NCBI RefSeq assembly: GCF_000444135.1
Contig: NZ_ATDK01000221.1
Coordinates: 1 to 64,000, forward strand
DNA from: Pseudomonas avellanae BPIC 631
GTDB taxonomy: Bacteria; Pseudomonadota; Gammaproteobacteria; Pseudomonadales; Pseudomonadaceae
Direction: 5' to 3'
DNA length: 64,000 bases
In this document: piece after piece, positions 7,089 through 14,415 of the stretch
How positions within the stretch are numbered: position 1 is the first letter of the stretch
How the letters are laid out: the number at the start of each line of letters is the position of its first letter
Made by a program: the position numbers and the translations under genes
Notes under the pieces: model-generated
What the model was told of the DNA's origin: nothing
Database searches by the model: none
Seen by the model: only the letters and a program-made list of their open reading frames with translations

Positions 7089-7834
7089 GTGATCGCCATT
7101 TCGACCAGTTGGCGACGCGCTTTGCAGAAAAGATCTACGGCGGGGCCAAAGGGGCCATTCGTCTGGCCGTTTTGCAGGCCGATATGACCGAGACGCTGCC
7201 CACGCGGCCATTGCGCGTGTTGGATATCGGCGCCGGGTTGGGGCATATGTCGCTGTGGCTGGCCGAGCAAGGTCATGAGGTGACGCTGGCCGAGCCCGCC
7301 GAGCCTATGCTTGAAGGCGCACGCCAGCGTTTTGCCGATGCCGGACAGACGGCAACCTTCATTCAGGCCCCGTGGCAGGCGCTGCCCGACTTACTGAGCG
7401 ACACTTACGATGTGGTGCTGTGCCACGCCGTACTGGAATGGCTGGCCGAGCCGTACTCGATTCTTCCGGTGCTGCGCAGGCTCACCAAGGACGACGGCTG
7501 GCTGTCGCTGGCGTTCTACAACCGCGATGCGCTGATTTATCGCAACTTGCTCAAGGGTCATTTCCGCAAGATGCGTAAAAACGACATGGCCGGAGAAAAG
7601 CAGAGCCTGACGCCCCAGCAGCCCCTCGACCCTCGGGAACTGGCGACGCAACTTGAAGGGCTGTGGCAAGTCGAAACCCGCAGCGGCGTGCGGGTGTTTC
7701 ACGATTACATGCCGGTTGAATTCCAGGCGCGGGCCGAGCTGACGGACCTGCTGGAAATGGAGCTGGCGCATCGACGGCATCCGGCGTTTGCCGGGCTGGG
7801 TCGATACCTGCACTGGATCTGCCGTCCGGTCTGA
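7085..7834 (+). CDS. cmoM: tRNA 5-carboxymethoxyuridine methyltransferase CmoM
   Basis: A 249-residue class I SAM-dependent methyltransferase of the SmtA/CmoM type, which methylates cmo5U34 to mcmo5U in certain tRNAs. The opening [17 protein letters not shown] is typical. The SAM loop [10 protein letters not shown] lies near residues 46-55 and the post-loop acidic L-A-E-P-A-E follows. Translation starts at a GTG inside the end of the MazG-like gene. Confidence 0.88.
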
Positions 7835-7853
7835 CATCATTGCGGAGACCCAC

Positions 7854-8492
7854 ATGACCTACCGTCCAGCCTTGTTTGCCCTGTTGCTCGGCCTGAGCGT
7901 TATCGGGCTGAGCGCCTGTCAGAGCGACAACCCTTACGTGGCCAGCTCGCTGCCCATGCCGCCAGCGCCGCCGCAGGCAGCCAAAACGCTGGACTTGAGC
8001 GCTTATCCAGCGCCGCCGCGCGACTACGGCAAGTACCGGACCTGGGGCTGGCTCAACGGCCAACTGCCACCGGGTACGGCCTGGGTGGATTCGGCACAGG
8101 TGGTCGAAGCATTGAGCAATGGCCTGGATCAGCGCGGCCTGCGCCCGGCTCGTAATAATCAGCCTGCCGACCTGTACGTCAGCGCCACGACACGGCAGGA
8201 AACCCGGCTACGCCAGGTGCGCGAGGATTATGATCCGTATTACGGGGGCGGCTTGGGTTACGGCCGTTACGATGGCTACCGCCCCGGTTACGGCGGATAC
8301 GCCAGCGTGCCGGTGGTGCGCACTTATCAGGAAAACGTGATGGTGGTGCAGATCAACCTGATTGATGCGCGCACCGGCCAGCCGGTCTGGAGCGCCAGCG
8401 CCGACGCACGCGCCAGCAACAATCTGGCAGACCGCAGCAGCGCACTGCGTCAGGCCGTGCAACAGGCACTGACCGCTTATCCCCCTTCGTAG
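7854..8492 (+). CDS. DUF4136 lipoprotein (first of a tandem pair)
   Basis: A 212-residue lipoprotein with a signal peptide ending in the lipobox L-S-A-C at about residue 22, then a Pro/Ala-rich linker and a DUF4136 domain ([10 protein letters not shown] near the start, L-D-Q-R-G-L in the middle). A Gly/Tyr-rich insert ([12 protein letters not shown]) sits at about residues 125-145. The ATG at 7854 follows a GGAGA site and gives a proper signal peptide. Function is unknown. It is co-oriented with a paralogue 29 bp downstream. Confidence 0.82.
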
Positions 8493-8521
8493 CTCTTTTG
8501 TAACCTCTTCGGAGAACTGCC

Positions 8522-9085
8522 ATGTTTCGCCGTATCATCCTGCTGTCCTGTGCCCTGTTGCTGGCCGCCTGTCAGAGCAACTCGATCAATCGCGATTTCG
8601 ATGCCCAGCGTGATTTCGCTGGTTATCGCAGCTGGAGCTGGAAAGAGCCCGGTGTGCAGTACCAGCCGGATGATCCACGGCTCAGGAGTGACCTGACCGA
8701 GCAACGCATTCGCCAGTCGATCGGCGAGCAATTGGACCAGCGCGGCTTGCGCATGGCCGCGGGCGGTGCACGTGCGGATTTGAACGTGCAGGCCTGGCTG
8801 ATCGTCGAAAATCGCCAGCAGACGGTGAGCACCAACTACGGCGGCGGATGGAACCCGTGGGGCGGCTATGGTTACTGGAACGGGCCGATGAACACCGAAA
8901 CCCGCAGCGTTGATTACAAGGTCAGCACCCTGCAGATCGACCTGTTCGACGCCAAGGACGGCAAACTGGTCTGGCGCGGCAGCACCGAACGCATCCTCAA
9001 CGACAACGCCGGCACCCCCGCCGAACGCGACCAGGCCATGCGCAGCACCGTTGCGAAGATCCTGGAGCAGTACCCGCCGCGCTGA
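8522..9085 (+). CDS. DUF4136 lipoprotein (second of a tandem pair)
   Basis: A 187-residue paralogue of the preceding gene: signal peptide with lipobox L-A-A-C, then Y-R-S-W-S-W, L-D-Q-R-G-L-R and L-Q-I-D-L-F-D motifs that line up with the neighbour. It also has a shorter Gly/Trp/Tyr-rich insert. A CGGAGA site precedes the ATG. Both proteins are expected to be anchored in a membrane facing the periplasm. Function is unknown. Confidence 0.83.
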   Translation: MFRRIILLSCALLLAACQSNSINRDFDAQRDFAGYRSWSWKEPGVQYQPDDPRLRSDLTEQRIRQSIGEQLDQRGLRMAAGGARADLNVQAWLIVENRQQTVSTNYGGGWNPWGGYGYWNGPMNTETRSVDYKVSTLQIDLFDAKDGKLVWRGSTERILNDNAGTPAERDQAMRSTVAKILEQYPPR

Positions 9086-11169: not shown

Positions 11170-11625
11170 ATGCCTTTTGTACCTGTCACAGAGCTCGAGG
11201 ACTACATTGGCAAGGAACCGGGATGTTCCGACTGGCTGTTAATTGACCAGGAACGTATCAACCTGTTCGCCGAAGCCACGGGGGATCATCAGTTCATTCA
11301 CATCGACCCGGTCAAAGCGGCGCAGACCCCGTTTGGCGAGACCATCGCCCACGGTTTTCTGTCGTTATCGCTGATCCCCAAGCTCATGGAAGGCATCATG
11401 GTGCTGCCCGAAGGCATGAAGATGGCGGTGAACTATGGCATGGACAGCGTGCGTTTTGTGCAGCCGGTGGTGGTTAACTCGCGCGTGCGCCTCAAGGTCG
11501 AGTTGACGGAAGTCACCGAGAAGAAACCGGGCCAGTGGTTGCTCAAGGCAACCGCTACGCTTGAGATCGAAGGCCAGGCAAAACCCGCTTTTGTGGCCGA
11601 ACCCCTGACCTTGTGTTTCGTGTAA
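11170..11625 (+). CDS. MaoC family (R)-specific enoyl-CoA hydratase-like protein
   Basis: A 151-residue single hot-dog hydratase. The active-site motif A-T-G-D-H-Q-F-I-H-I-D lies at about residues 36-46, followed by F-G-E-T-I-A-H-G-F-L, so the Asp/His pair is present. It would hydrate trans-2-enoyl-CoA to (R)-3-hydroxyacyl-CoA. It stands alone, ends in an 11-bp perfect stem-loop, and is preceded by AAGGAGC. Confidence 0.85.
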   Translation: MPFVPVTELEDYIGKEPGCSDWLLIDQERINLFAEATGDHQFIHIDPVKAAQTPFGETIAHGFLSLSLIPKLMEGIMVLPEGMKMAVNYGMDSVRFVQPVVVNSRVRLKVELTEVTEKKPGQWLLKATATLEIEGQAKPAFVAEPLTLCFV

Positions 11626-11637
11626 CACGTTTAAAAC

Positions 11638-11665
11638 ATGAAACAGTCGTAACAGACTGTTTCAT
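11638..11665. terminator. Perfect 11-bp stem-loop after the MaoC gene
   Basis: ATGAAACAGTC at 11638-11648 pairs with GACTGTTTCAT at 11655-11665 around a 6-base loop. There is no T-run on the plus strand after it, but the minus strand reads GTTTTAAA directly after the stem. It could terminate antisense transcription or stabilise the 3' end of the MaoC message. Confidence 0.55.
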
Positions 11666-11765
11666 CCCGCTTACTCGCTGCGGCATACTCCCCTGCAGTC
11701 GTGACCCATGACATCTGCTCAAGCAGAGCCGGGCTCGCCACTGAATCACTCTTCCGGGATCTCAC

Positions 11766-13493
11766 ATGCGCGCGCTTGCTCCATTGGCTTTGACACTCTT
11801 GATCGCAGGCTGCGGTGATGGCGAATCACTTTTGCCGCCAGACGGCCGCCTGCCCGATGGCGGACGCTACCGTGGCGACGTGGTCAACGGCCTGCTGCAA
11901 GGCGAGGGGCGGATCGACTACCCCAACGGCAGGTGGTACACCGGCCAGTTTGTAAACGGGCTTTGGCAAGGTCAGGGGGAATGGCACGCCAGCAATGGTG
12001 ACGTCTACAAAGGCGGCTTCGAGCAGGGCCTGTATCAAGGCCAGGGTCGACTGACCACGCGCAACGGCGCGAGTTATGTCGGCAACTTCAAACTCGGGCT
12101 GCGTGACGGCGAAGGGACGCAGAAAGACAAGGGCGTGCTTTACCGCGGCCAGTTCAAGGCAGGCCAGTACGACGGCCCCGGACGTCTGGAACTGGAAGAC
12201 GGCAGTCAGCACCAGGGCATGTTCGCCAAAGGCAAAGCCAACGGCGAAGGTTCGCGCAGTGACGCCAGCGGCAATCAATACAGCGGCAACTTCGTCGACG
12301 GCCAGTTGCAGGGCATCGGCAGTTTCACCAGCGCCGACGGCGATCAATATGTCGGCAACTTCCGCAACAGCCAGTTGGACGGCCAGGGCCGCTACGAAAA
12401 CAGCGACGGCGACGTCTGGAGCGGTGAATTCAAGGAAGGCGCACTGACCGGCAAAGGCGAGCTGATCGGTTCGGACGGCAGCCGCTATCAGGGCGACTTC
12501 GATAACTGGCGCTTCATGGGCCAGGGTCAACTGCAACTGGCTGACGGCAGTCGTTACGTCGGCCAGTTCGCCGATGACACCTATCAGGGCAACGGCGTAC
12601 TGACCTCCCCGGATGGCAAGGAACAGCGCGGCATCTGGGCCAATGGCCAACGGGTGCGTGACGCCAAGGGTAAATTGCTGCCCGACGTGCTTGAAGCCGG
12701 GTTGCTTGCGCAGGGCACTTTGCTGGACCAGGCGCTCGCCGCCGTGCCGGCATCGACACCGGCCACCGAACTGTACACGCTGGTGGTGGCAGGCGATGGC
12801 AAGCAAAGCGTGTTCATGCGCGAAGCGGACTACGTCAGCAATTTGCTGAAATCGCGTTTCGGCGCGGTCGGCCAGGTTGGTCTGGTCAATCATCGCGATC
12901 ACATGGATGACCGGCCGATGGCCACCCGCGAAACCATCACCCGCGCAGTGCAGCCCCTTGCACAGCGCACCGGCCCGGAAGACCTGGTCTTCATTTACCT
13001 GACCAGCCACGGCACACAGGACCATGAACTGGTACTCGACCAACCGCGCCTGTCGCTGGCTGATCTGCCCGCTGACGCGCTGGCCGCCGCCCTCGCCCCG
13101 CTGAAAAACCGCGACAAGGTCGTGGTCATTTCGGCCTGCTACTCCGGCGGCTTCATTCCGGACCTCAAGGACGAGCGCACCCTGATCATGACCGCCTCCC
13201 GCGCCGACCGGGTGTCCTTCGGTTGCTCGGAAGAAGCCGACTTCACTTATTTTGGCGATGCACTGTTTGCCAAGGCATTGGTCGAAACCGATGACCTGCA
13301 ACAAGCATTCAATGAAGCAAAAGCCTATGTCGCCCAACGTGAGACCGAAGATAATTTCGAAGCCTCCGAGCCGCAGATATGGACACCAAAAGGAGTTCTG
13401 GCGCGCTGGCAGCAATTGCGCAAAAGCCAGGCCGAACGCGCTTTGAATACGGCGTTGAACCGCACGGAAGCGAAGACCCCGACTAGCCGCTAG
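11766..13493 (+). CDS. MORN-repeat lipoprotein with C13-family cysteine peptidase domain
   Basis: A 575-residue predicted lipoprotein (lipobox L-I-A-G-C at residues 12-16). Residues ~35-300 hold about eleven MORN-like repeats of ~23 residues with the pattern Y-x-G-x-F-x-x-G-x-x-x-G-x-G. The C-terminal ~240 residues form a C13 (legumain/caspase-fold) domain: the His is in Y-L-T-S-H-G-T and the Cys in V-I-S-A-C-Y-S-G-G. Both catalytic residues are present. It would be a membrane-anchored periplasmic protease. The substrate is unknown. It is single-gene, with a 27-bp gap before the next gene. Confidence 0.87.
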   Translation: MRALAPLALTLLIAGCGDGESLLPPDGRLPDGGRYRGDVVNGLLQGEGRIDYPNGRWYTGQFVNGLWQGQGEWHASNGDVYKGGFEQGLYQGQGRLTTRNGASYVGNFKLGLRDGEGTQKDKGVLYRGQFKAGQYDGPGRLELEDGSQHQGMFAKGKANGEGSRSDASGNQYSGNFVDGQLQGIGSFTSADGDQYVGNFRNSQLDGQGRYENSDGDVWSGEFKEGALTGKGELIGSDGSRYQGDFDNWRFMGQGQLQLADGSRYVGQFADDTYQGNGVLTSPDGKEQRGIWANGQRVRDAKGKLLPDVLEAGLLAQGTLLDQALAAVPASTPATELYTLVVAGDGKQSVFMREADYVSNLLKSRFGAVGQVGLVNHRDHMDDRPMATRETITRAVQPLAQRTGPEDLVFIYLTSHGTQDHELVLDQPRLSLADLPADALAAALAPLKNRDKVVVISACYSGGFIPDLKDERTLIMTASRADRVSFGCSEEADFTYFGDALFAKALVETDDLQQAFNEAKAYVAQRETEDNFEASEPQIWTPKGVLARWQQLRKSQAERALNTALNRTEAKTPTSR

Positions 13494-13520
13494 GCTTATC
13501 AGTATCAAGGGAGAACGGTA

Positions 13521-14162
13521 ATGTATTTGACGCCGCAACATATTCTGCTCGCCGGGGCCACCGGCCTTACCGGTGAGCATTTGCTTGATCGCCTGCTTAA
13601 CGAACCGACCGTAAGCCGAGTGCTGGCACCGACGCGCAGGCCTCTGGCGGAACACCCTCACCTGGAAAACCCGGTCGGCGACCTCACCACATTGCTGCCC
13701 TTGCTGGGTGGCCGTGTGGACATTGCCTTCTGCTGCCTGGGCACCACTATCAAGCAGGCAGGCTCGCAGGACGCTTTCAAGGCGGTCGATCTGGACCTGG
13801 TGCTGGCGTTCGCCACCCGTGCCCGTGAGCTGGGTGCGCGTCATTTGCTGGTGATCAGCGCGATTGGCGCTGACCCGAAATCGACTACGTTCTACAACCG
13901 CACCAAAGGCGAGATGGAACAGGCACTGCGCGCGCAAGACTGGCCGCAACTGACCATCGCCCGCCCGTCACTGCTGGTGGGCAGCCGTACTGAAACCCGC
14001 TGGGTCGAACAACTGGCCACGCCTATCGCCAAGCTGCTCCCCGGCAAATACGGCGCAATCGAAGCCTGCCAACTCGCCCGTGCCATGTGGCGCCTGGCGC
14101 TGGAAGAGCAGAATGGTGTGCGGATTGTCGAGTCGGATGAGCTGCGTAAGCTGGGGAAGTAG
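13521..14162 (+). CDS. NAD(P)H-binding oxidoreductase (atypical SDR, HTATIP2-like)
   Basis: A 213-residue atypical short-chain dehydrogenase-like protein. The N-terminal dinucleotide loop reads G-A-T-G-L-T-G near residues 12-18, with C-C-L-G-T-T, V-I-S-A-I-G-A and Y-N-R-T-K-G-E-M-E further on, the last holding the YxxxK-like pair. The layout fits the HTATIP2/YbjT-like group. The substrate is unknown. An AAGGGAGAA site precedes the ATG. Confidence 0.8.
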
Positions 14163-14216
14163 GCGATGGTCGCTGGGGCTCAGACTATGATAGTCCCCAC
14201 GCTCCGCGCTCGTCGC

Positions 14217-14415
14217 TATACACAAGTCCTGAAGAGTCCGGTGGACGGGGATTTCAAGCTTCTGCCCGCAGGGCGTGGGAGCGAACCGGGCGACGCTTCG
14301 CTTGTTCGCGAAAGGGCCGGTGCAAACGCCGAAAATATATCGTCTGAAATGCCGCTTTCGCGAACAAGTTCGCTCCCACGGCCTCCGGCCAGAATCAAAA
14401 GCGGACTTGTGTATA
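14217..14415. repeat. REPIN-type element with 11-bp terminal inverted repeats
   Basis: TATACACAAGT at 14217-14227 is the exact reverse complement of ACTTGTGTATA at 14405-14415. Between them two REP palindromes face each other (14273-14312 and 14355-14382, core GTGGGAGCGAA). The sequences between each terminal repeat and its REP are also related (TCTGGCC-like box next to GTGGGAGCG). The whole fits a non-autonomous, MITE-like REPIN of about 199 bp. It occupies the gap between two convergent genes. Confidence 0.8.

Follow-up and report, generated by a model that had tools for sequence, protein, structure and literature searches.

What does a bacterial lipoprotein that joins MORN repeats to a legumain-like peptidase do in the cell envelope, and after which residue would it cut? 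These questions are raised by one gene in the window, i.e., the whole 64,000-nucleotide stretch of Pseudomonas avellanae DNA that was analysed. The open reading frame occupies positions 11766–13493 (+), starts with ATG and encodes 575 amino acids; these coordinates are exact, as given by the ORF call and the translation, and all features of the protein described below lie on the same (+) strand. The Pfam MORN profile matched at 121.5 bits (cut-off 22.5) and the Peptidase_C13 profile at 135.8 bits (cut-off 22.8), the latter over residues 402–541, to which the genome search added residues 337–387. Together with the lipobox described below, these scores bear out the original prediction of a lipoprotein in which MORN repeats are fused to a C13 peptidase. 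Searches of the own genome with C13 and MORN returned this gene as the sole match (E 0.001). A 707-residue frame on the complementary strand (11826–13949, −) faces nearly the whole MORN-C13 gene; similar frames lie opposite the genes of relatives. It is probably a codon-usage shadow and was rejected as a gene.

The chain begins with a short lipoprotein-type signal peptide (residues 1–15, MRALAPLALTLLIAG; 11766..11810), which is followed by the predicted lipidated residue, Cys16 (11811..11813). The lipobox Leu-Ile-Ala-Gly-Cys ends at this residue and, with the signal peptide before it, marks the window protein as a putative bacterial lipoprotein. A comparable lipobox is present in 78 of the 80 Pseudomonas loci, the other two (L108 and L142) having no readable start; a narrower lipobox pattern gave 75 of 80. 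Asp at position +2 of a lipidated Cys is a retention signal for the inner membrane. The window protein carries Gly instead of Asp at this position, and the 78 loci have Gly (73), Asp (4) or Ser (1). The lipid most likely anchors the window protein in the outer membrane, facing the periplasm. The four relatives with Asp (L145, L151, L153 and L154) may reside in the inner membrane according to the Asp+2 rule.

Eleven MORN repeats follow the anchor (residues 35–286; 11868..12623), in agreement with the "about eleven" of the original prediction. According to the motif layout, the units start at residues 35, 58, 81, 104, 126, 149, 172, 195, 218, 241, and 264, and the spacing of 23 residues (one interval is 22) is that of tandem PF02493 units. 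The full-length model has a mean pLDDT of 86.9 and a pTM of 0.56. In the model, the repeats form a continuous beta rod, with pLDDT values mostly of 90–97 in this block, which superimposes on Trypanosoma brucei MORN1 (6t4r; Z 20.3, rmsd 2.4, 209 aligned residues). A helical linker (residues 306–334; 12681..12767), corresponding to helix 3–20 of the C13 model, leads from the rod to the peptidase. The pTM of the full-length model suggests that rod and peptidase have no fixed mutual orientation. The rod would hold the endopeptidase domain off the membrane. The MORN1 proteins of T. brucei, T. gondii, and P. falciparum likewise form a MORN rod (Z 20.1–20.3), but their repeats come without an enzyme domain, as stated for TbMORN1 in the available part of the source (PMC7725318). 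The same partial source describes MORN1 proteins as dimerising protein-protein interaction modules and reports binding of TbMORN1 to individual phospholipids, with no binding to membranes or vesicles. These reports weaken the proposal that the repeats bind lipid or peptidoglycan. Protein-protein contacts are the probable means by which the rod of the window protein docks or dimerises.

The peptidase domain (residues 337–541; 12774..13388) is predicted to adopt the clan CD caspase fold. The catalytic residues of the original prediction are at the expected places, His415 in Thr-Ser-His-Gly (13008..13010) and Cys458 in Ser-Ala-Cys-Tyr-Ser-Gly-Gly (13137..13139). Both are invariant and are aligned with the His and Cys of legumain. 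A profile match above the cut-off and a His-then-Cys dyad in a predicted caspase/haemoglobinase fold place the domain in family C13 (PF01650). The model of the C13 domain alone has a pTM of 0.89. In VIA-align, it matches metacaspase-4 (6w8r; Z 19.8, rmsd 2.7, 208 aligned residues) and, 1.0 lower in Z, legumain (7fqi; Z 18.8, rmsd 2.9, 204 aligned residues), followed by metacaspase-9 (8a53; Z 18.2, rmsd 2.7, 207 aligned residues), chain K of the GPI transamidase (8imx; Z 17.7, rmsd 4.9, 218 aligned residues), and caspase-7 (Z 17.4, rmsd 2.5, 190 aligned residues). Foldseek places legumain first (4n6o; E 1.4e-09), with caspases next. Since both legumain and metacaspase match well, the predicted fold does not separate the two subfamilies. 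The profiles differ more: the domain scores 139.5 bits with C13 and 35.2 bits with caspase C14, and C13 is so far ahead that the best match to a caspase-domain profile that defines a metacaspase (C14B) is not seen. The Arabidopsis type II metacaspase AtMC4 matches the predicted fold no less well than legumain does (VIA-align) and shares an acidic residue at the start of helix alpha1, but its family scores far below C13 and the window domain has no acid two residues before the Cys.

If the domain were a true bacterial legumain, it would act on envelope proteins as an Asn-specific endopeptidase, or as a transamidase like the GPI transamidase and the plant ligases. The lead of C13 over all other Pfam families, the first place of legumain in Foldseek, and the match to GPI transamidase chain K are as this reading would have it, and the catalytic stretch of human legumain could be aligned with the C13 family profile (E 1.5e-09). 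The P1 preference of clan CD enzymes is set by residues on alpha1 (or L1), L4, and L5, and the S1 residues of legumain are Arg44, His45, Ser216, and Asp231, according to the accessible portion of a review (PMC4357240). Counted on the legumain-profile alignment, Ser216 corresponds to Ser484 and Asp231 to Asp498 of the window protein, so both are kept here. Ser484 belongs to a Ser-Phe-Gly-Cys motif (residues 484–487; 13215..13226) that follows the catalytic loop. Across 40 aligned sequences, the Ser216 position is always Ser, but the Asp231 position is Asp in only five and is Arg in P. aeruginosa. Arg44 and His45, matched by hand, are replaced by Met351 and Arg352, and these positions hold Arg in seven and His in none of the 40. 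The Glu located two residues before the catalytic Cys in legumain is Ser in all 40. Legumain also carries a C-terminal activation peptide and an LSAM domain (PMC4357240, in the part available). A C-terminal domain of this type is absent from the window protein, the chain of which stops about 34 residues past the Pfam match as one long helix. Human legumain therefore shares the predicted fold and the His/Cys dyad with the window protein, which differs in its partly kept S1 pocket, its chain end, and its MORN lipoprotein N-terminus. We regard a legumain of this kind as rather unlikely, and the Asn-directed cleavage of the original prediction is weakened: the Ser216 and Asp231 positions of the window protein speak for it, and the Asp231 position across the 40 sequences and the other pocket positions speak against it.

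A different acidic residue is conserved. Glu353 (12822..12824), at the start of alpha1, is a possible S1 acid by its conservation and by the HMMER alignment; of the 40 sequences, 38 have Glu and two have Asp at this position, which HMMER aligns with an Asp of Arabidopsis metacaspase-4. Metacaspases cleave after Arg or Lys, and the alpha1 acids of two Arg/Lys-cutting enzymes, Asp95 of TbMCA2 and Asp365 of MALT1, form part of their S1 pockets, as reported in the part of PMC4357240 that was available. The L4 acid of the Arg-cutting enzymes (Asp462 of MALT1 and Asp211 of TbMCA2) is replaced by Ser in the window protein. The alpha1 acid in all 40 sequences and the partly kept legumain S1 pocket favour a P1 preference other than Asn, possibly for a basic residue, but this prediction is weak because the L4 acid is missing. 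We tentatively treat the P1 residue as basic (Arg or Lys), or otherwise not legumain-like, in preference to Asn.

The alignment consists of the window protein and 39 hand-picked relatives with 76% to 30% identity, in which MORN-only matches and some C13 matches (e.g., both of genome G142) were left out; all 40 sequences match the Peptidase_C13 profile at E 0.01. The His/Cys dyad is present in every one of them. The Ser-Phe-Gly-Cys motif, as well as Ser229 and Pro231 in the segment numbering, is also invariant. The motif contains a second invariant Cys, Cys487 (13224–13226; 40 of 40), which is aligned with a Cys of legumain. In the search with the C13 part, in which the own record of the window may have been omitted, P. 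syringae pv. cilantro (94%) is the closest relative with a name, followed by P. caricapapayae and P. amygdali (both 93%) and P. viridiflava (90%); the window thus belongs in or close to this group. Compared with four relatives, the dN/dS is 0.04–0.06 for the C13 part and 0.06–0.13 for the MORN part; in two of these pairs, the synonymous sites are almost saturated. The MORN-C13 gene is under purifying selection and is not a chance ORF. Locus L144 was left out of set A3 because its given coordinates held a stop.

These data bear on another explanation, in which the peptidase fold would serve for binding, as a structural part, or as a switch that processes itself, and not as a trans-acting protease, with the MORN array as the main envelope scaffold. 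MORN arrays are indeed described as protein-interaction modules (PMC7725318, partial source), and PA4016 insertions had no confirmed phenotype in killing of C. elegans (PMC3406104, partial source; see below). However, the dyad is kept in 40 of 40 sequences, and in each of the four pairs the dN/dS is lower for C13 than for MORN, the difference being clear in two. Moreover, it is the MORN part that is exchanged among relatives and not the C13 part, although a C13-based search would miss proteins that had lost C13. We consider such a scaffold improbable and retain an active peptidase as the preferred reading.

The exchange of the N-terminal part was examined in a tree of 56 C13 proteins, which comprises the 40 aligned sequences, L155–L167, and L174–L176, and excludes six weak class-level matches (L168–L173). 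Thirty-five members have at least three MORN units, 15 have 4–6 predicted membrane helices, and six have neither; one of these six carries DUF4124, and some relatives are nearly the C13 domain alone. The labels were assigned by a custom motif pattern and hydropathy rules, with the first start codon in frame taken as the start. They require seven changes on the tree, fewer than in any of 200 shuffles, in a tree with 17 of its 53 inner branches poorly supported and two long branches (L176 and L162) of unsure placement. The number of MORN repeats in C13 relatives ranges from 3 to 12 by the custom pattern. Members of the family carry other membrane modules in place of MORN, which therefore looks like an exchangeable membrane-side anchor or scaffold, one of several N-terminal modules on C13. 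The description of the fusion as little studied fits the literature that was found, but MORN-C13 is only one of the combinations in which C13 occurs. The protein is widespread and made of known domain families. What is added to the original prediction is the modular nature of the C13 N-termini, the doubt on Asn specificity, and the finding of no partner gene outside the Pseudomonas family.

Among the genomes sampled, Peptidase_C13 scored above the cut-off in 93 of 148 for the family (spread over 11 of 19 genera), in 52 of 293 for the order, and in 20 of 229 for the class. Nineteen same-genus genomes, the own genome included, match C13, and the listed part of the genomes without a match contains none of this genus. 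A mobile gene was considered and set aside: the plasmid collection gave few C13 matches (7 records per search), five of which are from Acinetobacter, three of these being chromosome-sized.

In P. aeruginosa, the order of genes is the same as in the window: LON-substrate-binding, lrgB, lrgA, maoC, C13, oxidoreductase, a small lipoprotein gene, ubiX, and mpl. The P. aeruginosa protein, PA4016 (annotated "peptidase C13"), has the same architecture, lipobox, and dyad, with 66.8% identity over the C13 part; it differs in having 12 MORN motif matches, where the same pattern gives 11 in the window protein, and Arg at the position of legumain Asp231. The comparison sequence is from a record filed as a plasmid and not from PAO1, and its identity with PA4016 is based on the PA4015 and PA4017 flanks and gene order. 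PA4016 is located between PA4015 and PA4017 and is most likely a single-gene unit according to the authors of PMC3406104 (partial source). This conserved gene order identifies the window gene as the orthologue of PA4016, as the original prediction had it.

Among 80 Pseudomonas loci, some of which end early, the oxidoreductase gene flanks the peptidase gene in 80, lrgA, lrgB, and LON-substrate-binding in 78, maoC in 75, and ubiX and mpl in 64. In the window, the oxidoreductase gene (NAD(P)-binding, SDR-type; 13521..14162, +) starts 27 nucleotides past the peptidase stop, and by tblastn ends it lies 23–212 nucleotides downstream in all 80 loci. Co-transcription of the two genes is possible, and their products might form one pathway as a two-gene unit. 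A perfect hairpin with a stem of 8 bp or more precedes the peptidase gene in 36 of 77 Pseudomonas loci, compared with 8 of 385 shuffles, and its sequence differs among loci; GAAACAG/CTGTTTC is common to 20 of the 36. Such a hairpin fits transcription separate from maoC. Among the loci from outside the family, however, no such pairing was found, the recurring SDR-like ORFs there being generic short-chain dehydrogenases, and PA4016 is regarded as a single-gene unit (see above). We consider a two-gene pathway very unlikely. An all-against-all ORF comparison of 40 loci gave no convincing partner gene beside C13 in at least three families: of the 12 recurring-ORF rows, nine come from frames on the strand opposite the C13 gene, and the other three form a single generic short-chain dehydrogenase group. 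No neighbour common to the C13 loci was found beyond the Pseudomonas family.

In the window, a perfect inverted repeat of 11 bp with a 6-nucleotide loop (11638–11665) is located between maoC and the peptidase gene, with no T run after it. It occurs at a single place in the genome and shows paired changes in relatives. As its sequence varies between species groups, it was set aside as an operator and is perhaps the 3′ hairpin of maoC. A promoter and terminator scan of 11560–14260 gave 0 of each (mean of shuffles, 0.8 and 2.9, respectively). Further upstream, two adjoining small lipoprotein-like genes (7788–9085, +) were observed, the second of which is DUF4136 and the first alike by eye. The DUF4136 gene is present in 3 of the 80 loci, the flanks of which often stop short of its place.

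The published data on relatives concern PA4016 and AbrP, and the following sources were each available in part. PA4016 is listed in an envelope proteome, in which its level is reduced when MFS pumps are overexpressed (PMC7835679). A PA4016 insertion weakened C. elegans killing in an exoU-deletion background only; a second allele in the wild type had no effect, and the gene was dropped (PMC3406104). PA4016 was rejected as a virulence factor, the screen result being unconfirmed by the second allele. The C13 protein of A. baumannii is of the same family (38.6% identity over the domain; Pfam C13, 128.6 bits) and shares the dyad and the Ser-Phe-Gly-Cys motif, but no MORN repeat was found and it has four predicted N-terminal membrane helices; it falls among the multi-helix members of the tree. 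Five A. baumannii records, of which three are chromosome-sized, each contain it once, and it is therefore presumably AbrP. Deletion of abrp is reported in two reviews to increase membrane permeability and slow growth in A. baumannii (PMC10203620, PMC5346588), although these sources, in their available parts, disagree on which way susceptibility changes. In a study of A. baumannii expression, a peptidase C13 gene was among those that predict early polymyxin exposure (PMC4872528). The main text of a prokaryotic caspase survey, in the part available, mentions neither legumain, C13, nor MORN (PMC3501461). In the open-access literature, which leaves most subscription papers uncovered, we found no substrate or structure study of a PA4016-type protein, and studies of bacterial C13 proteins were limited to Acinetobacter reviews. 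A known substrate or role of the orthologues was named as counter-evidence in the original prediction, and no substrate is reported in the open-access literature found.

The sequence analysis supports the domains, the lipobox, the invariant dyad, purifying selection, and the modular N-termini. On this basis, our preferred reading, which we judge to have about an even chance of being correct, is an outer-membrane lipoprotein whose MORN rod bears a site-specific endopeptidase of the envelope, with a basic or otherwise non-legumain P1 residue more probable than Asn. The His415/Cys458 peptidase would cut one or more envelope proteins at specific sites, for maturation or quality control, and these cuts may help to keep the envelope tight. 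We count in favour of an envelope function the listing of PA4016 in an envelope proteome and the permeability reports on abrp. Against the preferred reading we count the large lead of C13 over C14, the first place of legumain in Foldseek, the kept Ser216 and Asp231 positions, and the missing L4 acid; the unconfirmed effect in C. elegans, the conflict between the abrp reviews, and the relative without MORN in A. baumannii; and the lack of a neighbour outside the Pseudomonas family that points to an envelope pathway.

A broader proposal, which we consider speculative and unlikely, is that a branch of the legumain/caspase clan is widespread in the envelope of Gammaproteobacteria and some alphaproteobacteria, in which branch the S1 pocket is altered to a non-Asn (perhaps basic) preference and the peptidase is plugged into MORN, multi-helix, or DUF4124 modules. 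Such a branch would be an unrecognised periplasmic system of site-specific proteases that controls envelope permeability. The C13 protein is usually present once per genome in the searched sets. If the envelope role holds, caspase-clan proteolysis would contribute to maintaining the envelope of Pseudomonas and Acinetobacter, and the specificity and substrate of the peptidase would account for the reported permeability phenotype of abrp and give PA4016 a testable function.
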